A stretch of DNA of 36,275 nucleotides from an uncultured Ruminococcus sp. (GTDB lineage Bacteria; Bacillota; Clostridia; Oscillospirales; Acutalibacteraceae). Made by a program: the position numbers and the translations under genes. The first letter of the stretch is position 1. Every line of letters starts with the position of its first letter. Where the stretch lies: contig CACYIC010000010.1 of assembly GCA_902774325.1 (NCBI GenBank), positions 1-36,275 on the forward strand, given 5' to 3'. Under the pieces are notes generated by a model. The model made no database searches. It was not told where the DNA came from and worked only from the letters and a program-made list of their open reading frames with translations. Shown here piece after piece: positions 3,421-34,410 of the stretch.

Positions 3421-3438
3421 ATATAACCTCCAATATTA

Positions 3439-4050: not shown

Positions 4051-4148
4051 TCTTTACTCCATCTCTTTTTTATCGAAAAATAAGGCGCGTAAAAGCCTGA
4101 AGGGATCAGAACCCGAAAAAGTCCGTTTTCCCGTTTTCTGGCTTTTGC

Positions 4149-4823: not shown

Positions 4824-4835
4824 CCTTTTTCTCCC

Positions 4836-6116: not shown

Positions 6117-6118
6117 AA

Positions 6119-9373: not shown

Positions 9374-9374
9374 T

Positions 9375-10238: not shown

Positions 10239-10266
10239 TATTGAGATCTTTCCTTGCGTTAATATT

Positions 10267-11957: not shown

Positions 11958-11969
11958 TGCTTCACCTCG

Positions 11970-12485
11970 TTATTGATATTGGGTCCCCTTTTGGTACATG
12001 AGCCTGCGAAGCTCGCTGCCCGCCGCCTGAGCGTGGCAGATAGCTATTGCCAGCGCGTCAGCGGTATCGTCGGGCTTGGGCATCTCCTCGAGCTTCAAAA
12101 GCCTCCTGGTCATCTCCATGACCTGCGGCTTTTTTGCCTTTCCGTAGCCCGTGACCGCGGTTTTGACCTGGAGCGGAGTATATTCAAAGATCGGTATTTT
12201 GAGCTTCTGCGCCGCCAGCAGCGTAACACCGCGCGCCTGCGCCACCTTTATCGCGGTTTTTTGATTGGTTTGGAAATAAAGGCGCTCTATCGACAGCGCG
12301 TCGGGTCGGCATCGGCTGAGGATCGCTGAGAGCTCGTCGTAGATATATTCCAGTCTTTCGTTGAAATCGGTGTGCGCCTCGGTTTCGATCGAGCCGTAAC
12401 CGATAGCCCTGTAGCTGTTGGCATGAAAATCAATCGCGCCCCAGCCTACAATGGCGTAGCCCGGGTCTATTCCAAACACAATCAA
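11970..12485 (-). CDS. ruvC: Crossover junction endodeoxyribonuclease RuvC
   Basis: Holliday junction resolvase. With the chosen TTG start (12485) the protein has 171 residues and begins MIVFGIDPG, the standard RuvC opening with the first catalytic aspartate. The second acidic residue is the Glu of SIERLYF and the last pair is in KPDDTADALAIA, completing the DEDD metal site. A strong GGAGGA site lies 6-7 bases before the TTG, whereas a reading to 12536 would add residues unlike any RuvC and would start within the promoter region. It is the first gene of the ruvCAB-to-cvpA series. Confidence 0.97.
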   Translation of the reverse strand: MIVFGIDPGYAIVGWGAIDFHANSYRAIGYGSIETEAHTDFNERLEYIYDELSAILSRCRPDALSIERLYFQTNQKTAIKVAQARGVTLLAAQKLKIPIFEYTPLQVKTAVTGYGKAKKPQVMEMTRRLLKLEEMPKPDDTADALAIAICHAQAAGSELRRLMYQKGTQYQ

Positions 12486-12526
12486 AACGATTCCTCCGAA
12501 AAAGGCATAATAGTACATTCTGATAC

Positions 12527-12555
12527 AGTATACCACAAAACCTTTTGTTTAGCAA
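12527..12555 (-). promoter_or_regulatory. Sigma-A promoter of ruvC
   Basis: TTGCTA (12555-12550), 17 bases, TATACT (12532-12527) on the minus strand. The start point would fall about 35 bases before the TTG start of ruvC. No LexA-type inverted repeat (GAAC-N4-GTTC) is seen here. Confidence 0.7.
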
Positions 12556-12565
12556 GACAGAATCT

Positions 12566-12606
12566 TGTTTTTTTCACGGCGGACTCTGTTTTTTCACGGA
12601 CGACTC
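12566..12606. repeat. Two-copy 20/21-base tandem repeat
   Basis: Positions 12566-12586 and 12587-12606 are near-identical adjoining copies of a unit beginning TGTTTTTTCACGG and ending GACTC; they differ by one T and by GCG versus ACG. The repeat covers the end of the lipoprotein gene and the region ahead of the ruvC promoter. It is probably a local duplication. Confidence 0.7.
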
Positions 12607-12952
12607 ATTCTTTTTCGAGCCTGAGCAGCCCGTCGCCGCGGCGCAGCTCCAGGGCGGTCTTGCTCACCTTGTACTCAAAGCCGTAGTTTTGCCCTACCTC
12701 CTCATCAAAAATCACAAGCTCCTCCTCGTCCGCGATATATCTGCCTGAGATCCTCGCCTGCTCCCCGCCGTTTTTCAGCGTGAGGCAGGCGCTTTCCCCG
12801 TCAAAGGAAAGCTCCGCCTCGCCGCCGCCCTTGAGCTCCCCCCTCCAGCGGCAAGCAGTCATCTCACTGCCGTAACCCCGAGGGCAGCAGCCGCCGAGCA
12901 AGAAACAACCGATAATTATCAATCCCGCGACAGCCTTCTTCATTTTTTTCAC
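12605..12952 (-). CDS. Small putative lipoprotein of unknown function
   Basis: A 115-residue protein with a lipoprotein signal: basic start (MKKMKK), hydrophobic core at 7-19 and a lipobox LGGC with the lipidated Cys22. The mature part alternates short polar strands (AELSFDGESACLTL, ARISGRYIADEEELVIF), as in small beta-barrel lipoproteins, such as the lipocalin-like modules that describe 'residual' scoring domains in Clostridia. I do not recognise the family with confidence. A GGGG site lies 10 bases before the ATG; a second ATG three codons later is also possible. It ends inside a tandem repeat, is divergent from the DUF2804 gene, and has no clear terminator before ruvC. Confidence 0.7.
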   Translation of the reverse strand: MKKMKKAVAGLIIIGCFLLGGCCPRGYGSEMTACRWRGELKGGGEAELSFDGESACLTLKNGGEQARISGRYIADEEELVIFDEEVGQNYGFEYKVSKTALELRRGDGLLRLEKE

Positions 12953-13028
12953 ACCCCAAAATATAAAATATCATTATAAAGTATTTCGTATCGATCAAGA
13001 TTATTACTTTACAATTTTGTTATTATTC

Positions 13029-13057
13029 TTGAAAAGCAAAATAGCATTTGTTATATT
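13029..13057 (+). promoter_or_regulatory. Sigma-A promoter of the DUF2804 gene
   Basis: TTGAAA (13029-13034), 17 bases, TATATT (13052-13057). It lies 24 bases before the chosen start codon, in an AT-rich divergent intergenic region whose other side serves the lipoprotein gene (only weak promoter-like sequence, TATAAT on the minus strand near 12980, seen there). Confidence 0.75.
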
Positions 13058-13080
13058 ATTACGGGAATGGAGTGAAAGAA

Positions 13081-14088
13081 ATGCAGAAGGAAATACTGTC
13101 CCCCTGCAGGGTATTTGAAATAAACGGAGAGGTTCAAGCCGCCGGCTGGGCAAGGCAAGCGCTTTTTGACTACAACAGCGAGCAGAGCAAGACCTCGGGC
13201 AGACACAGCGAGAGAGACTGCTATTTCGTCAACAACGGCGAGGTCTCGCTATATCTAAGCATCGAAAGCCTGGGAAACGAGTTCTCGGTGAAAATAGCCG
13301 TCGCCGATCTTAAAAGAGGCGGCGTGATCTGCGACAGCGTGGTCAAAAAGACCATTTTTCCCAAAAAAGAGCTGTCCTGCTCCGGAGATGGTGGAGAATT
13401 TCTTTATTCCGACCGCAGACTTCGTCTGCAAATCGTCAATACGACAGTCTCACGCGTAATCAAATGCGAATTTACAAGCTTCGGCGGACTTCACGACCTC
13501 AGCTTCAGCATCGCTCTGATCAAGCTCGGAGGAGAGAGCCTCAACGAGCTGGCTCCCTTTGAGCGCAACCGCAAATTCTTCTATCTCAAGCGCTTCGTTC
13601 CCAAATACACGGCGCGGGGATCTATCCGCGTCGGCAGCATGGAATATTCCTTAAACGAAAATTCAGCCAGAGCCTACTTCGATTGGACTCGCTTTTCAAA
13701 GCCCCGCAAGCACGACTACCAGCGACTCAGCTCCGACTGCCTGCTCGACGGAAAGCGCTTCTCCCTCTGCCTCGCGAGCAGGGTGGGCGACAACCGCTAC
13801 GGCAACGAGAACTGCTTTTTCCTGGACGGAAAGCTCGAAAAGCTCTCTCAGATAAATGTCAAGGGCACTCCCGGCAGGCTTGACAGACCGTTTTATTTCA
13901 AGGGCGGGATGCACGCTCTGGACATCACCTTCAAGCCCTTCACCGTCAAGGGCGACGCGATGACCGCTTCAATGGACAAAACAAAGGTCGTTTTCGGCAG
14001 GCTCTACGGCACCATAAACCGGATCGACATGGAAAAGCCCCTCGAGCTCGACAACGCGCAGGCTCACCTTGTTTTCAGCGAATTTTGA
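13081..14088 (+). CDS. DUF2804 family protein
   Basis: A 335-residue protein that looks like DUF2804, a family of unknown function found in Firmicutes and Actinobacteria. It starts with a Q-K-E-I-L-S-P-C-R-V-F segment in which a cysteine follows proline, then a long series of predicted beta-strands, with the family's A-Y-F-D-W-T-R-F motif near residue 205 and a G-T-I-N-R-I stretch near the end. No signal peptide is seen, so it is probably cytoplasmic. The fold is expected to be lipocalin-like or jelly-roll. Start at 13081 is chosen for the GGAG site 9 bases upstream; an ATG at 13048 lies within the promoter. It runs in the same direction as the Rrf2 gene but that gene has its own promoter. 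Confidence 0.78.
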   Translation: MQKEILSPCRVFEINGEVQAAGWARQALFDYNSEQSKTSGRHSERDCYFVNNGEVSLYLSIESLGNEFSVKIAVADLKRGGVICDSVVKKTIFPKKELSCSGDGGEFLYSDRRLRLQIVNTTVSRVIKCEFTSFGGLHDLSFSIALIKLGGESLNELAPFERNRKFFYLKRFVPKYTARGSIRVGSMEYSLNENSARAYFDWTRFSKPRKHDYQRLSSDCLLDGKRFSLCLASRVGDNRYGNENCFFLDGKLEKLSQINVKGTPGRLDRPFYFKGGMHALDITFKPFTVKGDAMTASMDKTKVVFGRLYGTINRIDMEKPLELDNAQAHLVFSEF

Positions 14089-14095
14089 TTTTCTC

Positions 14096-14124
14096 TTGCC
14101 TTTTCGGTTTTATTGTGATAAGAT
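14096..14124 (+). promoter_or_regulatory. Extended -10 promoter of the Rrf2 regulator
   Basis: TTGCCT (14096-14101), 17 bases, TGA-TAAGAT with the -10 at 14119-14124 and the extended TG just before it. The start codon is 34 bases downstream. No clear inverted repeat for self-repression was recognised. Confidence 0.65.
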
Positions 14125-14158
14125 AACACTGTAAGTATATCGAAAAGGTGGGATTTGT

Positions 14159-14593
14159 ATGAAAATATCGACAAAGGGACGCTACGCTCTGAGGATGCTG
14201 CTCGATCTGGCACAGCACCGCGACGAGGGCTTCATTGCCCTCAAGGATATCGCGGCGAGGCAGGGCATTTCAAAAAAATACCTCGAGCAGATAATCACAA
14301 TTATGAACCATACGGATATCCTCACGGCGAACAGAGGCTATCAGGGCGGCTACAAGCTCACTAAAGCTCCCGATCAATACACCATCGGATATATTCTGAG
14401 GCTGACCGAGGGCGGGCTGGCTCCCGTCGCCTGCCTTGAGCGCGACCCCATTGAATGCGAGCGAGCAGGAGAGTGCATCACGCTCCCGCTCTGGAAGGGG
14501 CTATACAAGGTTATCAACGACTACCTCGACGGCATAACGCTCCAGGATATTATTGACAGCGCCGCGGATAACTCAGACAACTATATCATTTGA
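14159..14593 (+). CDS. Rrf2 family transcriptional regulator (IscR-like)
   Basis: A 144-residue winged-helix DNA-binding protein of the Rrf2 family, which includes IscR (iron-sulfur), NsrR (NO) and CymR (cysteine). The opening MKISTKGRYALRML and the G-Y-x-G-G-Y-x-L wing (residues 60-67) are typical. Three cysteines, C92, C100 and C106, lie where IscR and NsrR bind an iron-sulfur cluster; IscR spacing is 92/98/104, so the first loop here is two residues longer. That suggests a cluster-binding sensor. No isc or suf genes follow: the gene ends at a bidirectional terminator, so its targets lie elsewhere. ATG preceded by a GGTGGG site. Confidence 0.9.
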   Translation: MKISTKGRYALRMLLDLAQHRDEGFIALKDIAARQGISKKYLEQIITIMNHTDILTANRGYQGGYKLTKAPDQYTIGYILRLTEGGLAPVACLERDPIECERAGECITLPLWKGLYKVINDYLDGITLQDIIDSAADNSDNYII

Positions 14594-14651
14594 GCCGAAC
14601 TCGGCTTTGCCGCGCGTTATTCGCGCATTGAACTGTTTTCACCCAAAAGAA

Positions 14652-14700
14652 AAAGGATGACCGGTCACTCGTTTCGAGTATCAGTCATCCTTTGTTTTTT
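14652..14700. terminator. Bidirectional intrinsic terminator
   Basis: AAAGGATGAC (14652-14661) pairs perfectly with GTCATCCTTT (14684-14693), with an inner ACTCG-TTT-CGAGT helix. On the plus strand it is followed by GTTTTTT; on the minus strand by TTTCTTTTGGG. It separates the plus-strand Rrf2 gene from the convergent exonuclease gene. Confidence 0.88.
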
Positions 14701-14714
14701 GATTTATAAGCTTT

Positions 14715-15599
14715 TTATAAGCTTTCGCCTTCGGGAGTTTTTTCCTCCTGCTTCTTTTCAGCCTTTTCAACGATGCGCTTATTGACCTTGACGCCGTCGT
14801 ATTTCTGCTTGAAGGATATCCTTCCCGTAAACTCCCGCCCGCAGCTTGAACAGCGGAAATCTGCAGTGAAGTTTTTGTTGTGGAGCTTCCATTTTTTGAC
14901 GCGCTTCGCGGGCTTTCCGCAGACGTCGCAGCGGAATTTCAGCTGAGAGCGGTCGATCTGAGGAGAACGCAGATCGGTGATAAAGAAAATCCTGAACATC
15001 ATCCGCGAGTAGAATTCCTCGTTTTCGGCATTCAGCACCGAAGCCTCGAGCGGATACCTGTCCCTGAGCAGTTTAAGACATTCAAGGCTCAGATAAGCGT
15101 CCGCGAAGGCGCGGTGAAGATCCTCCTCGGAATACTCCATTCCGATAAGCTCGGCGCAGGTTCCCAGACCCATCTGGTTGCCCTCGTCGTATCTTCCCAG
15201 AGCGCGCTCACAGAACTCCTGCAGATCGCAGTAGGATCTCAAAAACGGAATATGGTAGTCTCCCGTATGGAAGCTGTAGTTATCAATGAGCGCGTGGATA
15301 TCCGAGGTTCCCCAGGTCATCACCGTAGCGTCGCCCAAGAATTTGCTGAATGCGGCGGCGACAGAAAGAAAGTCCGAGCCGTTCTCCCTGAGCTCACGCG
15401 TAGTTATCTTTGTAAGCTGACGCACCTTTCCCGAAACACGCTTCCCTATCCTGGGCTTCACCAGCATGGAAAACTCATCCGTAATATTAAGCTCGTCATC
15501 AATCTTGACCGCGCCGAATTCAATGATCTCATTTACAAAACGGTTCGCGGATCTGCTGAAGGAGCCGTTCCACTCCAAATCCAAAATCACATAGCTCAT
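14715..15599 (-). CDS. DEDDh 3'-5' exonuclease with C-terminal zinc ribbon
   Basis: A 294-residue protein of the DnaQ-like exonuclease superfamily (close in look to KapD and ERI-1 types). The exonuclease fold (about 1-185) has D7-x-E9 (ILDLEW), the second Asp in MTWGTSDIHAL and the final H-R-A-F-A-D-A pair, giving the DEDDh metal site. A second part (about 215-265) holds two CxxC knuckles, CDVC and CSSC, forming a zinc ribbon, followed by a highly charged tail. The substrate is probably single-stranded RNA or DNA; the zinc ribbon may help bind it. Its ATG overlaps the typA stop in an ATGA, so it is translationally coupled to typA. Confidence 0.88.
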   Translation of the reverse strand: MSYVILDLEWNGSFSRSANRFVNEIIEFGAVKIDDELNITDEFSMLVKPRIGKRVSGKVRQLTKITTRELRENGSDFLSVAAAFSKFLGDATVMTWGTSDIHALIDNYSFHTGDYHIPFLRSYCDLQEFCERALGRYDEGNQMGLGTCAELIGMEYSEEDLHRAFADAYLSLECLKLLRDRYPLEASVLNAENEEFYSRMMFRIFFITDLRSPQIDRSQLKFRCDVCGKPAKRVKKWKLHNKNFTADFRCSSCGREFTGRISFKQKYDGVKVNKRIVEKAEKKQEEKTPEGESL

Positions 15600-17419
15600 T
15601 TCTTGCGGAACGCCTGCTTCATTCTCTGTTCCTTGGAAAGGATCCTCTTGCGCATGCGGATGCTCTGAGGCGTGACCTCGACAAGCTCGTCGTCCGCGAT
15701 AAACTCAAGGCACTGCTCGAGCGACATGATCGTAGGCGGGGTGAGCTTGAGCGCGTCGTCCGAGCCGCTCGCGCGGGTGTTTGTGATATGCTTTTTCTTG
15801 CAGACATTTACGGTGATGTCCTCCGACTTGGGACTCGCGCCGACGATCATTCCCTCGTAAACGGGAACGCCCGCGCCGATAAAGAGTCTGCCGCGCTCCT
15901 GAGCCGCGTACAGACCGTAGGTTACGGTGTCGCCCGTTTCAAAGGCTATGAGCGAGCCCTGATGACGGGTGACGATCTCGCCCTTCCACGGCTCGTAGCC
16001 GTCAAAAACGTGATTCATTATTCCGTTGCCGTTCGTATCCGTCAGGAACTCGGGACGGTAGCCCATGAGTCCTCTGGCGGGGATCTTGAATTCGATATGG
16101 GTCACTCCGCCGTCGCGGGTTCCCATGTTTACAAGCTCAGCCTTTCGCGAGCCGAGCTTCTCCATTACGGCGCCGACGTAAGAATCCGGCACCTCCACAA
16201 TGAGGTATTCTATAGGCTCGCAGAGCTTTCCGTCAATGGTCTTTGTGATAACCTCGGGGCGCGAGACCTGAAACTCAAAGTTCTGGCGGCGCATTGTTTC
16301 GATCAGGATGGAAAGGTGCAGCTCGCCTCTGCCCGATACCTTGAAGGTGTCTGCGCTGTCTGTTTCCTCAACGCGCAGAGCGATATTGGTCTCGATCTCC
16401 TTAAAAAGCCTGTCGCGCAGGTTCCTGGAGGTGACATACTTGCCCTCCTTGCCCGCGAACGGAGAATTGTTCACGATAAAATTCATCGTGACCGTAGGCT
16501 CGTCTATCTTTACAAAGGGCAGCGGCTCCACGCAGTCGACCGAGCAAAGCGTCTCGCCGATATTTATCTCGCTTATCCCGCTGATGCAGACGAGGTCGCC
16601 GAGACGGGCTTCCTCGCATTCAATGCGCTTCAGACCCTCAAACTGATAGAGCTTGCCGATCTTGACGTTTTTCGTGGTGCCGTCCGTATGACAGAGCGTT
16701 ACGGTCTGACCGCTTTTGACCGAGCCGCGCTCGACTCTTCCTACTCCGATCCTGCCGACGAAGTTGTCCGCGTCGATATTTGAAACAAGGATCTGCAGAC
16801 CTCCGTCGAGGTCGCCCTCCGGAGCGGGTATCTCGTTGACTATCGCCTCAAAAAGCGGCTTCATGTCCTTAGCCATATCGTTGTAGTCCTCGCCCGCGTA
16901 GCCGTCGCGCGCGGAAGCGTAGATAACGGGAAACTCAAGCTGATCCTCGTCGGCGCCGAGCTCGATAAAGAGATCGAGCACCTCGTCGACTACCTCCTCG
17001 GGACGCGCTCCGGGACGATCGATCTTGTTGAGTACGACCAGCGGCTTTTTGCCCAGCCCGAGAGCCTTTTTGAGCACAAAGCGGGTCTGTGGCATACAGC
17101 CCTCAAAGGCGTCGACAAGCAGCACGACGCCGTCTACCATCTGCAAAATGCGCTCAACCTCTCCGCCGAAATCGGCGTGACCGGGGGTATCCACGATATT
17201 TATCTTGATGCCGTTATACATCACGGCGGTCGGCTTGGACAAAATCGTTATGCCGCGCTCGCGCTCCAGGTCATTTGAATCCATCACACGCTCCGCGACA
17301 TTTTCGTTCTCACGGAACACACCGCTCTGACGCAGAAGCTGGTCAACAAGCGTGGTCTTGCCGTGGTCAACATGAGCGATGATCGCTATATTTCTTAAAT
17401 CTTCTCTCAAACTCATCAA
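15596..17419 (-). CDS. typA: Translational GTPase TypA/BipA
   Basis: Ribosome-binding GTPase of the EF-G family that helps 50S assembly and stress or cold growth. 607 residues, standard length. G1 is AHVDHGKTT, switch [17 protein letters not shown]4 NKIDRPGA; then a beta-barrel domain II (about 205-290), two EF-G-like domains, and the TypA-specific C-terminal domain with the G-E-I-V-x-R-H-Q-G-S stretch near 480-490 and a basic end. It has its own promoter and lacks a terminator before the exonuclease gene. The start ATG is preceded by a GGAG site about 11 bases away; the second codon is also ATG and is better placed for neither. Confidence 0.98.
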
Positions 17420-23852: not shown

Positions 23853-24605
23853 TCAGGACAGATAATCAAGACCGGCTATGCTTTTCTGCAATGCCGTAAC
23901 GTCGTCGACGTCTATTTGCCTGTCACGGTTCATATCATAAATCCCCTTGAATGTATACCACTTTCCTCTGTCAAAATCAATCGCAATGGAAATCCATACA
24001 TCACCTGGATTTTTCTTTACTATTTTTGCCAACACCTTTTGAATCAAAGTCGCGTCCCTGATATCAATCACGTTGTCATGTGTAACGTCGCCTATATATC
24101 TTCCGTATTTCGTACAACTCAGCGCGTCATCAATATCCGCGAATTTTTCTTTAATATAAGCTTTGTCTATGGAATAAAAAACCTCTTCCTCCAAATCATA
24201 TATACCGCATTCATACCAAAACGGAGCGCACGTATCACCTACGCCAATCAATCTGCCGTAAAATATTCCCTGATTGTCCCAAGAGTCTGCCCGATAAGAT
24301 CTGCATGAAAAGAAAAGCCAATCCATTTCTCCGTTCTCATTGTAGTGATAATATTTTTCATCCAAGAAACAGCATAAATATATATAATCCTCCACATCAA
24401 GAACCCGGTTATTATTCTCCTCATAAAGTGTGCGCTCTCTGGTAAGAACACTCTCATTGACATACTGCGGGTACATTTTATATCCTCTGGGAACGGATTC
24501 CATATCTTCACCGGCTGCCTCGACCGCCGAATTCGCGTGTGTGGGAAAGACGCAAACGCCCGCCAAAACTATCATCGATAAAACAGCAGATATTATTTTT
24601 TTCAT
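23853..24605 (-). CDS. Secreted dockerin-containing protein, N-terminal domain unknown
   Basis: A 250-residue exported protein. Signal peptide: MKKIISAVLSMIVLAGVCVF and a likely cleavage near ANS-AVEA (about residue 24-28). The middle part (about 30-165) is rich in Tyr, Asp, Glu and Cys and I do not recognise it. The C-terminus (about 170-250) holds two type I dockerin repeats: G-D-V-T-H-D-N-V-I-D-I-R-D-A-T-L-I-Q-K and Y-D-M-N-R-D-R-Q-I-D-V-D-D-V-T-A-L-Q-K, with the Asp/Asn Ca2+ ligands. Such repeats plug into cohesins on scaffoldins or the cell surface. No glycoside hydrolase or carbohydrate-binding motif is seen. GGAG 10 bases before the ATG fixes the start. The gene is visibly richer in AT than its neighbours, which hints at acquisition. 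Confidence 0.8.
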   Translation of the reverse strand: MKKIISAVLSMIVLAGVCVFPTHANSAVEAAGEDMESVPRGYKMYPQYVNESVLTRERTLYEENNNRVLDVEDYIYLCCFLDEKYYHYNENGEMDWLFFSCRSYRADSWDNQGIFYGRLIGVGDTCAPFWYECGIYDLEEEVFYSIDKAYIKEKFADIDDALSCTKYGRYIGDVTHDNVIDIRDATLIQKVLAKIVKKNPGDVWISIAIDFDRGKWYTFKGIYDMNRDRQIDVDDVTALQKSIAGLDYLS

Positions 24606-24627
24606 AATAATACTCCTTTCTGTTGAT

Positions 24628-24847
24628 TCAAGGATTTGTCGGTAAGGGATCCTGTATAGACACAGCATAACCATGACTTATTGACGGCAGGTTGTTATTG
24701 ACTCTGTTATAGATTATTTCATAATAACCGCTCACACTTGCCTCAAATGATTTTTTTACTCTGACTTTTTTCAAATAAAACACATCCTTTCCAAATCGCA
24801 ATATTGTCTAAATAGGTATTACGCGGCATATTTGATAAGCTCCACAT
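24628..24847 (-). pseudogene. Two overlapping short reading frames, possibly one frameshifted small gene
   Basis: Upstream of the dockerin gene an ATG at 24847, preceded by AAGGTGG, opens a 34-residue frame that stops at 24743. A second frame, open back to about 24800 and ending at 24628, overlaps it and can be read from a TTG at 24774 for 48 residues. The protein-like character passes from one to the other near the GGAAAGGATG stretch (about 24784): Tyr/Asn/Lys-rich text continues smoothly if one base is gained or lost. It could be a broken small gene, a leader peptide pair, or chance. No family is recognised. Confidence 0.22.
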
Positions 24848-25109: not shown

Positions 25110-25157
25110 AAAAAGGGCGCAGCTCCGTATACTCGCTTATGAGTACGGAGCCCGCCC
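25110..25157 (-). terminator. Intrinsic terminator of the five-gene adenylation/MBOAT operon
   Basis: On the minus strand GGGCG and CTCCGTA-CTC (25157 downward) pair with GAG-TACGGAG and CGCCC (to 25115) with small bulges, followed by five U (25114-25110). It begins 4 bases after the stop of the SGNH gene. Confidence 0.88.
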
Positions 25158-25161: not shown

Positions 25162-26310
25162 TTACCCTTGAAATTCATCAAGCATTTTTATTGTTTTATA
25201 GTTTTCTCCGAGAGTTTTCTTCTTCTTTGTAACCTTGATCGCGTTATCGGAGAAGCTGTAAAGCTTATCGTAATACTCTACGGCGGTGTCCCAGTCCTCC
25301 TTCTGCTTATCGGTCAGTCCGCCGCCCGTGAGCTGATATTTATCAATGAGAAGCTTACTCAGATAATTGGTAAACTTTTCGTTTCCGTAAATATTCAGGT
25401 GATCCCAGTTGTAAAAATCTGTTTTCGGGTCGATGCCTACTTCCTCATAGCCGCGCTCAAAATTGTAGAAATCATAGCCGTAGCTCTTTATAATATCGCC
25501 CGCGGCGTTCGCCTTCTTGACGCGCTTGTAGGTTTTTTTATAGATTAGGTGAGGCATTCGCATGAATACTACGTTTGTGATATTTTCACTCTTGCAGTAA
25601 TCAAGAAGATCACGAAGCTTGTACTCGAGAAGCGGAGTAAGGTCTACCCTTTCCTCCTCTGTGGCAAGCTGTGAATTGAGAACCTTCTTATTGGGCTTGA
25701 ACTGAGTGGTAACGGTCCTGAAGCCCTTCAAAAGGCTGGTCCCGCGTATATCCTGCTGAACCGAGGTGACCAGTCCGGTAGTTCCCGAGGGATAATCGTT
25801 CCACGTTCCGTGGTACTTGATTATCGGGAAATAATACTCGACCTGATCAGCCGTAGCCAGGTTTTCGTTGATAAAATCTATTTTGTTGGTGTTCAGCGGA
25901 ATATTGTCGGTGAACTTGCGGATATGCCCCTCGTTGTTTTCATTGCGCTCGGTATAGAGGAAGCCGTTTATCTCGATGACAATGAGCTTGGGGTGCTGAG
26001 TGCGGATAACCTCCTTGAGCTGAGCCTTGCAGGAGCCCGCGGTCGCGGATTCCGTCGCGTAAGGAAAGCTCGTATAACCGAAGTTCTTATAAGCAAGAGC
26101 CGAGGAAAAGCCCGCGTAAACATCCGAAGCGCCGATGATAACCATGTCCAGAGAATCCTTGTCCTCCAAATAATAGCCTCTCATGCGAATACGGTTCTGA
26201 TCGTTTCGGCACAGGACGTATTCCTGCAGAATACCGACCGTCACCAGTATCGCCAGCAGCAGACAGGCGACCTTCAAAAGGCGCAGGAGATATGGTTTTG
26301 CTTTTTTCAT
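25162..26310 (-). CDS. DltD-like SGNH-hydrolase-fold protein, membrane anchored
   Basis: A 382-residue protein with one N-terminal membrane helix (about 9-29) and an outside SGNH-like domain. The nucleophile block is V-I-I-G-A-S-D-V-Y (Ser62), and the C-terminal catalytic pair is W-D-H-L-N-x-x-G (D303, H304). DltD, AlgJ and AlgX, partners of MBOAT acyltransferases, have the same plan. It would act outside the membrane in the final transfer of an acyl group from the MBOAT protein to a polymer. It starts 11 bases after the MBOAT gene and is the last gene before a strong terminator. True DltD proteins have a different spacing and an HP motif; it is therefore named only by likeness. Confidence 0.82.
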   Translation of the reverse strand: MKKAKPYLLRLLKVACLLLAILVTVGILQEYVLCRNDQNRIRMRGYYLEDKDSLDMVIIGASDVYAGFSSALAYKNFGYTSFPYATESATAGSCKAQLKEVIRTQHPKLIVIEINGFLYTERNENNEGHIRKFTDNIPLNTNKIDFINENLATADQVEYYFPIIKYHGTWNDYPSGTTGLVTSVQQDIRGTSLLKGFRTVTTQFKPNKKVLNSQLATEEERVDLTPLLEYKLRDLLDYCKSENITNVVFMRMPHLIYKKTYKRVKKANAAGDIIKSYGYDFYNFERGYEEVGIDPKTDFYNWDHLNIYGNEKFTNYLSKLLIDKYQLTGGGLTDKQKEDWDTAVEYYDKLYSFSDNAIKVTKKKKTLGENYKTIKMLDEFQG

Positions 26311-26321
26311 AATTCAAGCCT

Positions 26322-27944
26322 CTAAAACTGCATATATACGAAGTCGGCGGGATTGTAACCCGAGCCGTAGATTCCGAAAACAACTACCGCGATAACCGCG
26401 ACGAACAGCAGCGCGAAGCGAACGATGAACGGACGCCTGTCGAGCAGCTGACGCAAAGTGGTTTCGGCGTTGCGCTCCTGAATAACGGAGGCAATGAATA
26501 TCACCAGACCGCCGAGAATAATGACCAGGAAATCCTTCTTGCCCAAGCCGAGCTCGCTGATCTGCGACCATCCGACAGAAAAATTCTGATCGGTAAAGAA
26601 GAGTCCGAAGGTGCGCATCGCCTGCGAGAATGAAGGCGCTACGTCAAAGACATATCCAACAAGTACGACCAGGAACGTGCGGAACATCTGGAAGAGCACG
26701 AAGAAGAAGTTGGAGCGGTTGATCCTGAGCCTGTCAACGGCGCTGTCAAACAGCGGCTGCATCAAAATGCTTATCATAATGATGAGTCCGTTCCAAAGAC
26801 CGAAGGCAACGTATTTCCAGCTCGCGCCGTGCCATACGCCGACGACCAGGAATACTATCAGCGAGGCAACGCTCGTCGGGAGCACCTTGGCGATATGGGC
26901 GCCTGCGGCGGTCGAGCCGAACTTTGTGGACTTCATCTTCTTGCTGGCGTTAATAAAGACGTTCGACATCGCGACGGGATAGAAGAGGTAGTTTTTCAGC
27001 CACGCGCCGAGAGAGATATGCCAGCGGCGCCAATACTCGCTGATCGACTTCGAGAAGTAGGGACGCTTGAAGTTTTCGATCATATCTATTCCGAAGATCT
27101 GCGCCACGCCTCGGGAAATATCGATTCCTCCCGAGAAATCCGCGTAGAGCTGCAGAGCGTAGAGCAGCACCGTGAAGGTAAGCGTCGTTCCGTTATAGGA
27201 ATTGTAGGAATCGGTAACGGCGGTGATCGCTATGACCGCTCGGTCGGCGACCACAAGCTTTTTGAAGAAGCCCCACAAAATCAGCTCGCAGCCGTATTTG
27301 AAGCGGGTGAAATCAAAGCTGTGACCCTCAAAAAGCTGTTCGGCGAGCTGATCGTAAATGCTGATCGGACCCTGAACGATCTGGGGAAAGAAGGATACGA
27401 ACAGCAGAAGCTTGAGCGGATTCTTCTGAGCCTCGGTCTTTTCGCGGTAAACATCCACGATATATCCCATCGACTGGAAGGTGTAAAAGGAGATGCCCAG
27501 AGGCAGGAAAAGCTGAAGCGTCGGCATTGAGAAAGGTATGGAAAACGCGCCGAGGATATCGTTGAGGCTGCCCGAGAAGAAGTTGTAATACTTCAAAAAA
27601 GCGAGGATCCCGAAGTTGATAACCAGCGCCGAAGCCATAACCAGCCGTTTTATGATTTTGATTTTATTTTTGTATTTCTTTTTTTCGTCCCTGCTCCACT
27701 CCGCTTTTTTGCTTTTCAGCGTCGCGTTTGAGTTTTTGGATATCTTGTTTATCAGCAGAGCTATCAAATACGTGCTTAAGGTCGTGAAAAGAATGAACGC
27801 GACGAATTTATAGCCCGCGACAAGATAGAAGAACAGGCTTCCAGCGAGAAGTACAGTCCATCTGAGCTTCTTCTCGGGAAACAAAAAGTAAACCAGAACG
27901 GTTACAAGAACAAAGAACAGAAAATTTAGAGATGTGTAAGTCAA
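26322..27944 (-). CDS. MBOAT family O-acyltransferase (DltB/AlgI-like)
   Basis: Polytopic membrane enzyme that moves an acyl group from a cytoplasmic carrier across the membrane. 540 residues with about 11 hydrophobic segments. Family marks: P-L-G-I-S-F-Y-T-F-Q at 148-157, Y-A-D-F-S-G at 267-272, S-E-Y-W-R-R-W-H-I-S-L at 302-312, and the catalytic His372 in G-V-W-H-G-A-S-W. The start is a TTG at 27944 with a CGGAGA site about 8 bases before it; no in-frame ATG lies close. It follows the decarboxylase gene by 67 bases, a gap that contains an 8-base-pair hairpin. With an ACP and an adenylation enzyme in the operon the donor is probably an acyl/aminoacyl-ACP. Confidence 0.92.
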   Translation of the reverse strand: MTYTSLNFLFFVLVTVLVYFLFPEKKLRWTVLLAGSLFFYLVAGYKFVAFILFTTLSTYLIALLINKISKNSNATLKSKKAEWSRDEKKKYKNKIKIIKRLVMASALVINFGILAFLKYYNFFSGSLNDILGAFSIPFSMPTLQLFLPLGISFYTFQSMGYIVDVYREKTEAQKNPLKLLLFVSFFPQIVQGPISIYDQLAEQLFEGHSFDFTRFKYGCELILWGFFKKLVVADRAVIAITAVTDSYNSYNGTTLTFTVLLYALQLYADFSGGIDISRGVAQIFGIDMIENFKRPYFSKSISEYWRRWHISLGAWLKNYLFYPVAMSNVFINASKKMKSTKFGSTAAGAHIAKVLPTSVASLIVFLVVGVWHGASWKYVAFGLWNGLIIMISILMQPLFDSAVDRLRINRSNFFFVLFQMFRTFLVVLVGYVFDVAPSFSQAMRTFGLFFTDQNFSVGWSQISELGLGKKDFLVIILGGLVIFIASVIQERNAETTLRQLLDRRPFIVRFALLFVAVIAVVVFGIYGSGYNPADFVYMQF

Positions 27945-27970
27945 AACAATGTCTCCGTTTAATAAATTGG

Positions 27971-28000
27971 ATAAATCCTATTGAATGATGCGGGATTTAT
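27971..28000 (-). other. Intercistronic hairpin between decarboxylase and MBOAT genes
   Basis: ATAAATCC (27971-27978) and GGATTTAT (27993-28000) are perfect 8-base arms with a 14-base loop. The minus-strand tail is CCAATTTATT, not a U run, so it is not a full terminator. It may lower or stabilise parts of the message. Confidence 0.45.
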
Positions 28001-28011
28001 TATCAGATTTT

Positions 28012-29193
28012 TTACGGGGTATTGAAAACATCTGAATAAAGTCTCTCGCGAAGGACGGTAAGACCGTTCTCGCTCGAGTATTTTGAGATAACTGGCATTT
28101 CGCGGCTGAGGAAAACAGCCATGCCCTCCATCGCTGAGTAAGCGCCGGTGCGGCAGAATACCAGCACGTCGCCGATCCTGAGCGAATCAAGCTCGACGTT
28201 TCGCGCGAGAACATCCGCAGTCGTGCAAAGGCTGCCGCAAAGAGTCCAGGGCTCAACGCCGTCGGAGGCGTTATTATTCTTTATATGAATAATTTTCGGT
28301 ATCTGCATACCCTGGAGCTGACCGTCATACTTGAGCTGGTTCATGCCGCCGTCGAGAATGGCGTAGTTGACGCCGCAGTTGGTCTTGACGTCCATGACCT
28401 TCGTTAGGTAATAGCCGCAGGGAGCCGCAAAGAAGCGACCCATCTCAACCGTCAGCTCAGCCTTCTCGGCAAGCTCTCTGAGCTTGGGAGATATCGCCGC
28501 GAGGCGTTCTTCCTCGAGCGCGTCCGCTTCGTCGGTAAAGTAATCGACCGCAAGCCCCGTTCCGTATTCGATCCGCTGAACAGTAAAATCATAATCAGCC
28601 TTTAATCTGTCGATAAGACCGGAGAGATAATCGAGTTCCTTTTCGATCGGCTTGGGCTTGCGCTTTTGGGTGCCGGTGAAATAGTGGATACCGACGATCT
28701 CAACGCCCGGAAATTCGGCGCGGCGGCTGATAAGGTCGAGAACGTCAGCCTCGTCCATACCGAACTGGCTTCCGCCCTTGATATCGGTAGCCCTGAGCAG
28801 CACGGGGAAAACCTTTTCCCTCTTTATCGCCGCGTCATTTATAAGATCGAGGTGAAGTCGGCTTTCGGCGGTAAAGGTCCCGACGCAGTCGTCAGCTGCG
28901 CGGGCAACATCCTCATAGCCCTTTGTGACGCCCGAAAAGATTATTTTGCTCTTGTCAACGCCTGTTTTTTCGCAGATCGTCAGCTCACCCGGAGAGCAAA
29001 CCTCGATCTTGTCAAAAATCTCGGGAAGGCTTCCCAGCAAAAAGGGATTCGCCTTTATCGAAAAGCAAAGACCGATTTTATCGCCGAAGTACTTTTTTAC
29101 AAGCTGCGCCCTGGCGTTGAATTCGTCCAGATTGAAAATATAGGACGGAGTCGAAAGCGCGGGAATCAGCCCGCCGAGCTCTTTCGCGTCCAT
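28012..29193 (-). CDS. Fold-type III PLP-dependent decarboxylase (DapDC/ornithine decarboxylase-like)
   Basis: A 393-residue enzyme of the alanine racemase-fold decarboxylases (group IV). PLP lysine K47 in S-I-K-A-N-P; H170 with the G-T-Q turn of the usual H-x-G-S-Q; E250-M-G-R for the usual E-P-G-R; the D-G-G-M-N stretch at 281-285; C323 in C-G-S-L-C-T-T-A-D, the active-site Cys loop; Y352 in G-A-Y. All core residues for PLP binding are present, so the enzyme should be active. The substrate is unknown. It is 2 bases from the ACP gene and sits in a dlt-like operon, which recalls BtrK, a relative that decarboxylates glutamyl-ACP in butirosin synthesis. A housekeeping diaminopimelate decarboxylase (lysA) is the alternative but the context argues against it. 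Confidence 0.87.
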   Translation of the reverse strand: MDAKELGGLIPALSTPSYIFNLDEFNARAQLVKKYFGDKIGLCFSIKANPFLLGSLPEIFDKIEVCSPGELTICEKTGVDKSKIIFSGVTKGYEDVARAADDCVGTFTAESRLHLDLINDAAIKREKVFPVLLRATDIKGGSQFGMDEADVLDLISRRAEFPGVEIVGIHYFTGTQKRKPKPIEKELDYLSGLIDRLKADYDFTVQRIEYGTGLAVDYFTDEADALEEERLAAISPKLRELAEKAELTVEMGRFFAAPCGYYLTKVMDVKTNCGVNYAILDGGMNQLKYDGQLQGMQIPKIIHIKNNNASDGVEPWTLCGSLCTTADVLARNVELDSLRIGDVLVFCRTGAYSAMEGMAVFLSREMPVISKYSSENGLTVLRERLYSDVFNTP

Positions 29194-29195
29194 GA

Positions 29196-29426
29196 TCAGT
29201 CGTCCTGAAGCTGCTCGATGAGCTTGAGCATAGCCGCTGCCGAGTTGAAGTTGTCGGGAACGAGGTTGTTGGGCTTGATCTCGATGTCAAAGGCGTCGTT
29301 GAGCTCGCCGACGAGAGCCACGATGTCAAAAGAATCGAGCACGCCGTCGGTAATAAGCGCGGTCTCGTTCTCAAAGTCAACGTCGGGTCTGAGTTCCTGT
29401 AAGATTTCCATTAATTCGTCCATCAT
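29196..29426 (-). CDS. Acyl carrier protein (DltC-like)
   Basis: A 76-residue acidic four-helix protein with the phosphopantetheine attachment serine S32 in the V-L-D-S-F-D-I-V motif at the start of helix II. D-S-F is typical of DltC and other amino-acyl carriers, while fatty-acid ACP has D-S-L. It needs a phosphopantetheinyl transferase, not encoded here. It lies between the adenylation enzyme (30 bases before it) and the decarboxylase (2 bases after it), and should carry the group activated by the former. GGAG 9 bases before the first of two adjacent ATG codons. Confidence 0.93.
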   Translation of the reverse strand: MMDELMEILQELRPDVDFENETALITDGVLDSFDIVALVGELNDAFDIEIKPNNLVPDNFNSAAAMLKLIEQLQDD

Positions 29427-29456
29427 GATAAATATCTCCTTTAATAACTTTTTTCT

Positions 29457-30962
29457 TTATTTGAAATATGATTTAAGGGTCTGCATATCTATTTTGCCGT
29501 TTGGCAGAGTAGGCAGAGCCTCCAGATTGATAAGCTTGCGCGGGACCATGAAGGCGGGCATATTCTGACGGAAGTACAAAACGATATCCTTTGAGGTCGC
29601 CTCTCCCGTATAGAAAAGATAAAGCGTTGCCTTCTCCTTGTTGTAGAGCGAGCAGCAGTCGTTCACTCCCCGGACCTTGCGCGAGGTTTCCTCGATCTCG
29701 CCCAGCTCGATACGGTGTCCGAGGTGCTTGATCTGGCGATCCTTTCTGCCGTGGAAAAGCAGATTTCCGTCGGGGGCAAGGCTGCCGAGATCGCCTGTTT
29801 TATAGATCAGCTCGCGGTAATTATCGTTGAGCGGATTCTGCATAAAGGATTTTTCGGTCTGCTCGTGATTTCCGTAATAGCCGAGCGCGAGGATGGGACC
29901 GCTTACGCAGATCTCTCCGATCTCGCCCTCGGGAACAGCCTCGTTCTCCTCGCTGAGCAGCAGGATCCTGTAATTGTCATAGGGCTTGCCTATCGGCAGA
30001 ACGGTGTCGTCGTCAACCTTTTCCGTGACGGTATAATAGGTGCAGGAGGCGGTCGCCTCGGTGGGTCCGTACTGGTTGACATAAAGCACGTCCGGAAGGT
30101 GCTCCTGCCAGATCTTGAGATATTTGCAGGGCATTACAGAGCCGGAGAAGCAGAGCTTTTTGAGGTATTCGGGCTTGCTGAGATCAAAAGCGCCCAGCTT
30201 CGCGGGAAGCTCGACCCCCGCGACGCTCCAGCAGAGAGCGGTGATTTTCTCTCGGTTCAGAGTATCAAAAAGCATTGTCGGAACGGCAAATTCGTTCTTG
30301 GGGATGATATAGGTCGAGGCTCCAAAGGTTATCGGCAGATAGATATCTCTTACCGCGGCGATATAATCGAGCGGGGATTGGTTGCCGAAAACGTCGTCGC
30401 TGTCAACCGAAAGCACCTTCGCGACCGAGTCGATATAGCACATCAGGCTCTGGTGCGAGGTGATAACGCCCTTGGGAACTCCGGTCGAGCCGGAGGTGAA
30501 AATCACATACAAGGGCGAGGTGAGCGTCAGAGTCGCAGCCCTTGAGGAGATAAGCTCCTCGTTTACGGGTGTTTCGAGTATATCCTCCATCACAACTGTT
30601 TCGCCGTCGAAATCGAGCGACTGAGCGATCTCAAGATGAGCTCTGTCAACGAGCATCAGCTTGGTCTTTATTACTCCGAGTATCTGATTGAGCCTTGCCT
30701 TAGGCATATCGCCGTCCATCGGCGCGTAAAAGCAGCCCGCGCGAACCGCGCCCAGAAAGCAGGCGGGAGTTGTAACGTGTCTGCCCGACATGACAGCCAC
30801 GGGACTGCCTGCAGGAAGTCTTTCCGCCAGCGCGGTGCCGATCGATTTTGTCAGAGCGTCGAACTGAGCAAAGGTGAGCTCGCTCTCGCTGTCCCTGAAA
30901 ATCACCTTGCCGGCGAATCGGGAGGCGGTTGAATCGAGCCTGTTAAGAACTGAGGTTTCCAT
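29457..30962 (-). CDS. AMP-forming adenylation enzyme (NRPS A-domain/DltA-like)
   Basis: Stand-alone enzyme of the acyl-AMP ligase superfamily that would activate a carboxylic or amino acid and load it on the ACP. 501 residues, close to DltA. Core motifs: A3 Y-V-I-F-T-S-G-S-T-G-V-P-K-G (152-165), A5 Y-G-P-T-E-A-T (298-304), A7 Y-K-T-G-D-L, A8 G-R-K-D-R-Q-I-K-H-L-G-H-R-I-E, and A10 with catalytic K490 in L-P-N-G-K-I-D. An aspartate (D199, S-P-L-D-Y) falls about where A domains use Asp to hold the substrate alpha-amino group, which favours an amino acid, but the alignment by eye is not certain. First gene of the operon, with its own promoter. D-alanine is not assumed because the operon contains a decarboxylase. 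Confidence 0.9.
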   Translation of the reverse strand: METSVLNRLDSTASRFAGKVIFRDSESELTFAQFDALTKSIGTALAERLPAGSPVAVMSGRHVTTPACFLGAVRAGCFYAPMDGDMPKARLNQILGVIKTKLMLVDRAHLEIAQSLDFDGETVVMEDILETPVNEELISSRAATLTLTSPLYVIFTSGSTGVPKGVITSHQSLMCYIDSVAKVLSVDSDDVFGNQSPLDYIAAVRDIYLPITFGASTYIIPKNEFAVPTMLFDTLNREKITALCWSVAGVELPAKLGAFDLSKPEYLKKLCFSGSVMPCKYLKIWQEHLPDVLYVNQYGPTEATASCTYYTVTEKVDDDTVLPIGKPYDNYRILLLSEENEAVPEGEIGEICVSGPILALGYYGNHEQTEKSFMQNPLNDNYRELIYKTGDLGSLAPDGNLLFHGRKDRQIKHLGHRIELGEIEETSRKVRGVNDCCSLYNKEKATLYLFYTGEATSKDIVLYFRQNMPAFMVPRKLINLEALPTLPNGKIDMQTLKSYFK

Positions 30963-31013: not shown

Positions 31014-31041
31014 ATTATAATACAACAAAAAGAATAGTCAA
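31014..31041 (-). promoter_or_regulatory. Sigma-A promoter of the five-gene adenylation/MBOAT operon
   Basis: TTGACT (31041-31036), 16 bases, TATAAT (31019-31014) on the minus strand, followed by a leader of about 45 bases and AGAGGA before the first ATG. With the terminator at 25110-25157 this bounds a transcript of about 5.9 kb. Confidence 0.78.
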
Positions 31042-33039: not shown

Positions 33040-33528
33040 TTATTTGCGTCCGTTGCCGTTTCCGCGGCGGCTGTAGCCTCGGCTTTCTCCCCCGCGCTTG
33101 AGGTCGCTCATCTTGTCCTCGCTGGTTTGCTTAAAGCGGGACATCATATCCTCAAAGGTCGAGGGGTTGCCTTTCTTTGAGCTTTGCCACTCGTAATTCC
33201 CGGGAGAGGTCACGGGCGGCGCGGGCTTATAGGGCTGTCTGGGGCCGCGCTCGCGCGGCTTTTGACCCTGCTGCTTGGGCTTTTTCTGGTGCTCCTTTGG
33301 GAGAGCCTGCTTCATTGAGAGGCTTATTTTTCCGTCATTGACCGCAAGAACCTTTACCTTGACGGTTTGCCCCACGCTCACATACTCCGAGATCTCATTG
33401 ATGAAGGTGGGAGCGACCTCCGAAATATGTACCATTCCCGTTTTTGATTCAGGCAGATCCACAAATGCACCAAATTTGGTAATTCCCGATACCTTGCCCT
33501 CCAAAATCATTCCGACTTCAATTGCCAT
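33040..33528 (-). CDS. yabR: S1 RNA-binding domain protein (YabR-like)
   Basis: A 162-residue protein with one S1 domain at about 1-75 (VGMILEGKVSGITKFGAFVDL, G-M-V-H-I-S-E-V, V-G-Q-T-V-K-V-K-V-L), followed by a long disordered tail rich in Lys, Pro, Gln, Arg and Gly. It resembles Bacillus YabR and the S1-domain end of polynucleotide phosphorylase. It probably binds RNA or ribosomes; its exact role is not known. It lies 36 bases after divIC, the same order as in B. subtilis (yabO-yabP-yabQ-divIC-yabR), which supports the symbol. Confidence 0.88.
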   Translation of the reverse strand: MAIEVGMILEGKVSGITKFGAFVDLPESKTGMVHISEVAPTFINEISEYVSVGQTVKVKVLAVNDGKISLSMKQALPKEHQKKPKQQGQKPRERGPRQPYKPAPPVTSPGNYEWQSSKKGNPSTFEDMMSRFKQTSEDKMSDLKRGGESRGYSRRGNGNGRK

Positions 33529-33564
33529 AGATTGTGTATACCCGCTAACCCTTTCTCAGATTAT

Positions 33565-33951
33565 TTATTGATCACCGGCGACGTTGATAAATATCCTCTC
33601 ACCCTCGCCGACAAAGCCAAGCTCTTCCTTTGCCATTTTTTCCATATAATCCGAAAGCTGCTGACCCTTGTAGCCGCGAACCTTCTGGATATAATCGGAC
33701 TGTATCTCAACAACGTTGATCTCCTGCTTGAGCTCGCTGAGCTCAGCCTTTTTCTCGGCGATCCTGACGTTCTGGTTTATGATCGTGATGACCGCGTAAA
33801 ACGCGAAGCCAATCGCCGCCAAATATAATAGAATATATCTTTTTTTGTGCTTTTTGACGGGCTTTATTTCCTTAAGCCCTTCCGCTGACTGCGCCTCCGG
33901 CACGACAGCCTGCGCCTTCTTTTTTGAAGGCTTCTTCTTGAAAAGCGGCAT
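33565..33951 (-). CDS. divIC: Septum formation initiator DivIC/FtsB-like
   Basis: Bitopic cell-division protein that joins FtsL and DivIB in the divisome. 128 residues: a basic, Lys/Ala-rich cytoplasmic part (about 1-38), one membrane helix (about 40-60), a coiled coil (about 62-90, I-A-E-K-K-A-E-L-S-E-L-K-Q) and a C-terminal piece with the E-E-L-G-F-V-G-E-G-E motif. The start at 33951 has a GGAAGGA site; a reading to 33966 would include that site in the protein. Position after yabQ is as in Bacillus. Confidence 0.92.
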   Translation of the reverse strand: MPLFKKKPSKKKAQAVVPEAQSAEGLKEIKPVKKHKKRYILLYLAAIGFAFYAVITIINQNVRIAEKKAELSELKQEINVVEIQSDYIQKVRGYKGQQLSDYMEKMAKEELGFVGEGERIFINVAGDQ

Positions 33952-33993
33952 AGTAATTCCTTCCACACTTAATATTCTGTCTTAATACGTAAA

Positions 33994-34410
33994 TTATCCT
34001 TTTCTTCCTTTTATATTATACAATATCTTGCGGGCATATTTCAATAGCTTTTTGAGAAATTTTTTCATTATTTCCGAAATTTTGCGCAATATACTCCCGA
34101 CGCCCCGCACTATCGGAATATAAACAAGGGCGAACAGCCTGCCCAGGGTAAGACGATACGCGATGATCCCCAGAAAAACGCCGATCACCGTATAAAACCT
34201 GACGTATCCCTCGACAAAGCCCAGCGAAAGATAGAAAACCGAGAGGCTGCAAACCAGCATAAAGGCGACGTCGCAGACAAACACCGCCGCCTTGCCCGGA
34301 GAAAAAGCGGTTCTGAAAAGCTTTATTACGCCGTACAGCGCGCCCAGAGCCAGACCCGCGAGGAGCGAATACAAGAATGCAGCAGATTGCTGCGCGAAGG
34401 TCAGCTCCAT
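33994..34410 (-). CDS. yabQ: Spore cortex biosynthesis protein YabQ
   Basis: A 138-residue membrane protein with four hydrophobic segments (about 7-30, 40-62, 68-86, 90-105) and a very basic C-terminal tail (K-K-F-L-K-K-L-L-K-Y-A-R-K). In B. subtilis YabQ is a mother-cell protein in the forespore outer membrane that is needed for cortex formation. Identification rests on size, topology and the position 3 bases after yabP. It indicates that the organism, or its recent ancestors, could sporulate. Confidence 0.88.
   Translation of the reverse strand: MELTFAQQSAAFLYSLLAGLALGALYGVIKLFRTAFSPGKAAVFVCDVAFMLVCSLSVFYLSLGFVEGYVRFYTVIGVFLGIIAYRLTLGRLFALVYIPIVRGVGSILRKISEIMKKFLKKLLKYARKILYNIKGRKG

Follow-up and report, generated by a model that had tools for sequence, protein, structure and literature searches.

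The window analyzed here, a 36,275-nt stretch of contig CACYIC010000010.1 from an uncultured Ruminococcus sp. (assembly GCA_902774325.1), carries on its minus strand a five-gene operon (25162-30962) that encodes, in this order, a stand-alone adenylation enzyme (A), an acyl carrier protein (ACP), a fold-type III pyridoxal phosphate (PLP) decarboxylase (DC), an MBOAT acyltransferase and an SGNH-fold transferase. The preliminary description of this DNA placed the five genes under one promoter and one terminator, and this is confirmed. A sigma-70-type promoter-like site (TTGACT-16-TATAAT, 31014..31041, minus strand, matching 11 of 12 consensus positions), the best in the region, lies ~50 nt upstream of the first ATG of the operon. 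At the other end, an intrinsic terminator consisting of a hairpin and a T-run (25110..25157, minus strand) stands out by its folding energy, with a 71-nt stretch reaching -31.1 kcal/mol (z -5.02), a value matched by 0 of 200 shuffles.

All five products carry the features expected of their families. The A enzyme (501 aa, 29457..30962, minus) matches PF00501 (E 8.7e-59), and the stretch forming its substrate pocket (30045..30368, minus) includes D199, I201, R205, S273, Q297 and S306. The ACP (76 aa, 29196..29426, minus) matches PF00550 at 21.6 bits, against a cut-off of 20.8, and its Ser32, the phosphopantetheine site in an LDSFD motif, is invariant in 15/15 aligned sequences. The DC (393 aa, 28012..29193, minus) combines PF02784 and PF00278; it carries the pair C323-T324 and a lysine, Lys47, which we take to be the PLP-binding residue and which is invariant in the two alignments examined (15/15 and 29/29 rows). 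In the MBOAT protein (540 aa, 26322..27944, minus; PF03062, E 5e-19), the histidine of the WHG motif, H372, is invariant in 13/13 aligned sequences, and the C-terminus is the hexapeptide FVYMQF (26325..26342, minus), an FxYxxF motif in which Tyr537 is the candidate acyl-accepting residue. The last protein (25162..26310, minus), with Ser62 and His304, was assigned to the SGNH fold from its AlphaFold model.

We surveyed the distribution of the DC in overlapping genus, order and class samples that include the window's own genome, and found matches in 53 of 100 genomes (E <=1e-60), 13 of 295 (E <=1e-40) and 9 of 291 (E <=1e-50), respectively. A scan of named genomes returned at least 547 relatives. 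The 80 best were retained, and they include Ruminococcus albus, with all five genes, and records of Mogibacterium and Pseudobutyrivibrio, with only the trio A-ACP-DC. Together with 20 loci fetched around hits, including a lysA control (L040), 100 loci were examined, or 95 distinct DC loci once the control, three duplicates and L123, left out because its DC is in two pieces, are subtracted. The order seen in the window, A-ACP-DC-MBOAT-SGNH, is present in 56 of these 95, and A-DC-ACP-MBOAT-SGNH in another 12, so that all five genes occur in one of two orders in 68/95. Five more loci have the five genes in order plus an extra or split copy, and the remaining 22 comprise contig-end cuts, rearrangements, and loci with the trio or less. 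By this comparison, the five genes are predicted to be a conserved functional unit, because their order is kept across DC loci while the flanks change.

The flanking genes, which were identified in part, vary widely, and the commonest flank cluster appears in just 15 of 100 loci. The commonest identified families are a HAD hydrolase, GT2, a MORN protein, PFK, MscS, CobW, a histidine kinase and the mraZ-rsmH-ftsL-pbp cluster; in ten loci (L044, L057, L059, L060, L061, L064, L067, L068, L071 and L108), mraZ plus rsmH-ftsL-pbp follow the operon immediately or after one intervening gene. No family recurs in more than 15/100 loci, no shared glycan pathway was seen among the identified flank genes of the 100 loci, and flank genes were accordingly rejected as a pointer to the acceptor.

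The A enzyme falls marginally short of the general family model (AA-adenyl-dom, 317.0 bits against a cut-off of 317.4) and far short of the two DltA equivalogs (TIGR01734, 249.7 against 559.85 bits; NF003417, 266.5 against 476 bits), although DltA is still its best-scoring single-enzyme equivalog in NCBIfam. We compared its pocket, defined as 11 positions in PheA numbering, with 233 and 234 added to the usual code, across 93 A rows from DC loci (window included; 90 distinct), 22 A enzymes from operons without a DC, and 8 DltA-like enzymes, 1 of which exceeds the curated cut-off. Left out of these counts were 8 A fragments no longer than 440 aa (L052 and L123 contributing two apiece, and L058, L063, L090 and L122 one apiece) and 7 A-like proteins that did not exceed 300 bits, namely six distant ones (L186, L190, L195, L202, L203 and L206) and the true DltA of L146. 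In the window's enzyme, D199, I201, R205, S273, Q297 and S306 correspond to positions 233, 235, 239, 301, 322 and 331. This is the type I pocket, with D233, I235, A236, R239, S301, Q322 and S331 in 74/74 rows (71 distinct, window included), whereas a type II pocket combines D233, D235, V236, K239, S301, C330 and N331 in 16/16 rows. Position 233 is Y or H and position 301 is G or A in all A enzymes of DC-less operons (22/22); in the DltA-like enzymes (n=8), these two positions are occupied by S and by I, C, A or V, respectively.

Scanning 501 alignment columns for residues fixed in types I and II (at least 95%) and absent from the 22 DC-less enzymes (at most 5%), with the third pocket type described below left out, returned only two, 233 D and 301 S, both of them pocket positions (hypergeometric P 4e-4, kinship ignored). 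All four type-specific columns (233, 301, 330 and 331) likewise lie in the pocket (P 1e-7, kinship ignored). D235, the usual ligand of the substrate amino group, is replaced by Ile in type I. Another residue must therefore bind that group there, and D199 at position 233 is a candidate for this role. Position 301 corresponds to VinN S299, which a passage in PMC11253843 equates with GrsA A301, and for which, together with Arg331, PMC7756342 proposes recognition of the alpha-carboxyl of methyl-aspartate; by that numbering, with VinN itself unaligned, Ser occupies the equivalent position in 90/93 DC-associated rows. By sequence comparison, the pocket thus departs from that of DltA, in line with the preliminary description, with Ser at the VinN Ser299 position.

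These results bear directly on the simplest explanation, namely, that this is an ordinary dlt operon for D-alanylation with an unrelated lysA-like passenger gene. Four of the five roles do match those of Dlt, and DltA is the best-scoring single-enzyme model for A. However, the DltB and DltC models, like that for DltA, are far from their cut-offs (128.8 against 375 bits for the MBOAT; 34.6 against 68 and 20.8 against 52.35 bits for the ACP), the A enzymes branch outside the DltA-like enzymes in the tree (SH-aLRT 100), and the type I pocket lacks both Asp235 and the DltA-like residues at 236, 301 and 322. Furthermore, the shuttle motif sits on the MBOAT, and the DC is kept beside A across DC loci and tied to the pocket changes. 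We rejected a plain dlt operon on model scores, pocket residues and the position of A in the tree, and consider this explanation highly improbable; the operon is, on all these comparisons, predicted not to be a dlt operon. DltA scoring over the cut-off was found in none of 30 genomes picked among relatives with the cassette and others, and in one of the 196 searched in the class. Elsewhere in the window's genome, a 3011-aa open frame (G000:C33:3230-10708) with several DltA-like adenylation domains is probably a multimodular nonribosomal peptide synthetase (NRPS).

The dlt-like logic with an added DC that was proposed earlier is supported, but not the MBOAT as an equivalent of DltB. An FxYxxF C-terminus is present in 69 of 82 distinct MBOATs of DC loci ([FPI]xYxxF in 81/82) and in 32 of 43 MBOATs of loci without a DC, 42 of which end in Tyr-x-x-Phe/Tyr; the true DltB of L146, the only one whose end was checked, has no such end. 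Passages in PMC12148441 describe this C-terminal motif as the acyl shuttle of the MBOAT and report envelope polymers as the targets of MBOAT-SGNH pairs that carry it. From its sequence, the operon MBOAT is predicted to be PatA-like, with the acyl shuttle as part of the same chain, and not a DltB equivalent; the comparison with Dlt, in which the shuttle is on the separate microprotein DltX, covers open reading frames of at least 60 aa. The SGNH protein, probably held outside the membrane on one N-terminal helix, was weakly matched in a profile search against PDB sequences (best E 0.044), but its AlphaFold model matches SGNH enzymes including DltD and PatB, aligning with DltD over 234-242 residues.

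For the DC, the closest solved relatives tie, with Aquifex LysA at 106.1 bits and BtrK (2j66), the precedent named in the preliminary description, at 105.5 bits. Similarity alone therefore leaves undecided whether the substrate is free or carrier-bound. C-T or C-S replaces the C-E of LysA in 99/99 operon DC rows (a few of them duplicates), and BtrK carries C-T like the operon DC, whereas the solved LysA enzymes aligned carry C-E. In a tree, the operon DCs (28 rows) group together with an SH-aLRT of 99 and separately from both BtrK and LysA, although the placement of BtrK is uncertain because of long branches. The window's DC scores 169.0 bits with the LysA equivalog TIGR01048, and 170.8 bits in the search of its genome, below the cut-off of 297.9. 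The possibility that this DC is the sole lysA of its genome was rejected, because the window's genome has a separate lysA-like gene (G000:C3:54758-55981) which, at 262.9 bits, is also under the curated cut-off but keeps the C-E motif (C-E-N-N-D) that the operon DC lacks.

Putting these observations together, we favor, on balance and with slightly more confidence than doubt, a reading of the operon as a complete system of its own for attaching an omega-amino acyl group, made on the carrier by decarboxylation, to a cell-surface polymer as an ester. We infer that A would activate an acidic amino acid at its side-chain carboxyl, with L-Asp as the likeliest acid and Glu or 3-methyl-Asp as second choice, and would load the acid onto the phosphopantetheine of Ser32 of the ACP. 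The DC would then remove the free alpha-carboxyl on the ACP, as VinO and BtrK do, yielding beta-alanyl-ACP or gamma-aminobutyryl (GABA)-ACP. From there, the MBOAT would move the group to Tyr537 of its own FVYMQF shuttle, outside, and the group would pass to Ser62 of the SGNH protein and on to a hydroxyl of the surface polymer. The outcome would be a positively charged ester, as in D-alanylation, but with another group. Greater stability is expected of beta-alanyl than of alpha-aminoacyl esters, and GABA esters are prone to cyclization, which slightly favors beta-alanyl.

Several observations on the A enzyme weigh against this proposal. A third pocket type (L116, L121 and L124), DAKS[CA]VLG[IV]K, occurs in DC-associated A enzymes without D233 and S301. 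Types I and II may form one clade (support 70), possibly of one origin, so that the pocket shift could be a single event. VinN Arg331 is replaced by Ser in type I and Asn in type II, and VinN Asp230 (PheA 235) corresponds to Ile201 in the window's type I, though to Asp in type II. Position 239 is basic in both types (Arg in I, Lys in II), which, by comparison with ACV synthetase and microcystin enzymes, resembled a mark of side-chain carboxyl activation; it was dropped as evidence, since 16/22 DC-less enzymes have Lys there, and a Leu-activating domain with Lys239 is among those tabulated in PMC2174460. The tie with LysA among the solved relatives of the DC, the patchy occurrence of the candidate acceptor polymer described below, and two points that follow, on IdnL3 and on panD, have to be counted on the same side.

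Foremost among the other explanations is that the DC makes the omega-amino acid, beta-alanine or GABA, from free Asp or Glu, after which A loads it and the MBOAT and SGNH proteins export it, giving the same decoration by another order of steps. LysA acts on a free amino acid, and the type I code IARxxSQASK agrees with published codes of domains that activate beta-alanine, where 301 is likewise Ser. On the other hand, we know of no fold-type III enzyme that uses free Asp, and the DC shares its C-T motif with BtrK, not LysA. A free beta-alanine source would be useful to the DC-bearing genomes, given that panD was found in none of the 17 searched; it was present in 2 of 6 genomes without the DC, and because the other four also have none, its absence lends little weight to beta-alanine being made on the carrier. 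Passages in PMC11284099 state that in a related pathway the PLP decarboxylase IdnL3 takes beta-glutamate as the free acid, which speaks for the free acid and counts against our proposal, whereas BtrK, and VinO by its pathway, are described as acting on a carrier-bound residue. We regard this order of steps as unlikely, yet worth keeping in view.

The substrate itself leaves room for variation. The DC might act on the carrier, but on 3-methyl-Asp, aminoadipate or diaminopimelate, giving a 3-aminoisobutyryl, 5-aminovaleryl or lysyl group. The pocket codes of types I and II differ, so the groups made need not be the same, and VinN prefers 3-methyl-Asp (PMC11284099). However, lysine could be loaded without a decarboxylase, and the conserved module has no sixth gene, for example for an unusual acid, among flanks identified in part. 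We judge such a substrate improbable relative to Asp or Glu.

Operons of this kind also exist without the decarboxylase. The MBOAT family (E <=1e-70) was detected in 59 of the 295 genomes of the order sample, compared with the 13 that have the DC. Among 46 further regions fetched, 3 have a DC and a true dlt operon serves as control. The remaining 42 divide as follows: 17 encode A-ACP-MBOAT-SGNH without a DC, 5 encode A-ACP-MBOAT with no SGNH gene detected, and 20 lack an A enzyme of this family. These DC-less operons (including L141, L142, L177, L180, L181 and L183) show at least three pocket types, for instance DAKSAGLGMK, SMxxLALDIK and DLKSxGxVDK. The DC-less A-ACP-MBOAT-SGNH operons are, apparently, several more uncharacterized surface aminoacylation systems. 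The interpretation offered in the preliminary description stands in part: the dlt-like logic with an added decarboxylase is retained, the assignment of the MBOAT as a DltB equivalent is corrected, and the sister operons without a DC are added.

The trio can also occur with other partners. In L120 (Pseudobutyrivibrio sp. MD2005), A-ACP-DC are followed by two AT3 acyltransferases, without an MBOAT/SGNH pair, in a cluster (585-15953) with a polysaccharide-export-type gene, a sugar transferase, a pyruvyl transferase and a UDP-GlcNAc 2-epimerase; this surface-polysaccharide cluster also holds an ATP-grasp/HAD fusion. In L099, again without the MBOAT/SGNH pair, the trio lies beside GT2, MatE, sugar-transfer ATP-grasp and PIG-L genes. 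Directly upstream of that trio are four successive genes of one cluster (L099:2811-6123), with TIR domains in 3/3 scanned. In L121, a hexapeptide-repeat transferase gene lies between the DC and the ACP, with no MBOAT/SGNH pair; a histidine kinase is encoded upstream. All three contexts are consistent with the trio supplying surface glycans with activated acyl groups.

The placement of the trios of L120 and L099 in surface-polysaccharide-type clusters also argues against a different idea, that the trio makes a soluble secondary metabolite which the MBOAT/SGNH pair releases or modifies, with no polymer decorated. The trio precedents all belong to secondary metabolites (vicenistatin, bolagladin and butirosin). 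Nevertheless, no further family recurs in more than 15/100 loci, the identified neighbors are not polyketide synthase or NRPS genes, and the association of shuttle-bearing MBOAT-SGNH pairs with envelope polymers in PMC12148441 points the same way; a soluble product would surprise us greatly.

If a surface polymer is esterified, as we propose, its identity may differ among hosts. LtaS was rejected as the polymer maker: no match to PF00884 (LtaS-type enzymes) was found in the window's genome (~91% complete) nor in 7 of the 17 genomes searched, and its absence from the former makes classical lipoteichoic acid doubtful as the acceptor. The window's genome does encode one PF04464 polymerase, in a cluster on contig C9 (L221) with an IspD-type cytidylyltransferase, an epimerase, LicD and an AT3 protein, and the polyol-phosphate polymer of this PF04464/LicD cluster is a plausible acceptor there. 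Among nine type II genomes searched, however, PF04464 was present in three (G161, G031 and G066) and was not found in six (G231, G177, G142, G292, G149 and G112), so this polymer cannot be the acceptor everywhere.

The immediate neighborhoods add a few observations. The gene directly upstream of the operon encodes a histidine kinase in 6 of the 92 loci having an upstream gene, and a response regulator plus kinase lie upstream in 5 of 13 type II loci compared (L026, L027, L029, L037 and L038), with one open reading frame in between in L029; such a pair would suit an envelope response. In the window itself, the gene just downstream of the operon (23853-24674, minus) has a C-terminal dockerin type I-like domain (PF00404, 21.8 bits, cut-off 22.9), a putative assignment pointing to a cellulosome-type Ruminococcus. 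Upstream (33040-34410, minus), DivIC-like and YabQ-like genes adjoin an S1-domain protein, a sporulation/division neighborhood.

Charge-modifying esters on wall polymers govern cationic-peptide resistance, autolysis and host sensing, and D-alanine is the textbook group. We tentatively suggest, at a little less than even confidence, that the operon represents a third kind of envelope acylation, in which a carrier-fed MBOAT with a built-in shuttle transfers a group made on the carrier by decarboxylation, that the surface polymers of Ruminococcus and relatives bear ester-linked beta-alanine or GABA instead of D-alanine, and that the A-ACP-DC trio is portable, working with MBOAT/SGNH pairs, AT3 or hexapeptide transferases. 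If true, this would be a new polymer decoration in a group of gut and rumen Firmicutes, where a carrier-made omega-amino acid would fit the scarcity of DltA over cut-off in the genomes searched. It would also break the pattern, stated in a passage of PMC12148441, that Dlt stands alone among MBOAT/SGNH pathways in having a carrier protein. By title and abstract, no description of the five-gene operon was found among the papers listed in searches of the CC-licensed PubMed Central literature.

Among characterized systems, the trio finds its closest counterparts in VinN/VinL/VinO (vicenistatin) and BolO/BolC/BolN (bolagladin), each consisting of a stand-alone A, a stand-alone ACP and a PLP decarboxylase. 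Passages in PMC11284099 report that VinN loads 3-methyl-Asp on VinL, that FlvN uses Asp, and that VinO decarboxylates the thioester, the formation of which is needed before decarboxylation; PMC7756342 proposes that Asp is converted to beta-alanyl-ACP by BolO/BolC/BolN, and reports that beta-alanine did not rescue the bolN deletion mutant. The operon A shares Ser with VinN at position 299 and differs from it at the Asp230 and Arg331 positions, as described above. The Vin and Bol trios feed polyketide or peptide synthases, whereas that of the operon is joined by an MBOAT and an SGNH protein. Compared with these full trios, the BtrJ/BtrI/BtrK set of butirosin synthesis, invoked earlier as the precedent, is retained but less close: BtrK ties with LysA as the best solved match and shares the C-T motif with the DC, but the product is an aminoglycoside side chain. 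BtrJ, moreover, is an ATP-grasp ligase, not an adenylation-domain enzyme. The exosortase A-associated trio (TIGR03098/TIGR03099) has a ligase and a PLP decarboxylase of the same broad families, but the operon proteins score 166.3 and 167.8 bits against cut-offs of 592.35 and 478.45, and no exosortase is among the identified flank genes, no search having been aimed at one.

On the transfer side, the operon shares with Dlt (DltA, DltC, DltB, DltX and DltD, for D-alanylation of teichoic acids) an A enzyme with a dedicated carrier, an MBOAT and an SGNH protein, and differs from it in having a DC, in an A pocket unlike that of DltA-like enzymes, and in a shuttle motif fused to the MBOAT, where Dlt has it on DltX. 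With PatA/PatB, it shares the C-terminal FxYxxF shuttle, the catalytic His and the SGNH partner; PatA, however, uses acetyl-CoA, whereas the operon holds an ACP and an adenylation enzyme. The operon thus couples an MBOAT resembling PatA with a supply of carrier-bound groups resembling that of Dlt, a combination of which no description was found in the CC-licensed literature searched, and we rate it as a putative variant of MBOAT-SGNH envelope acylation.

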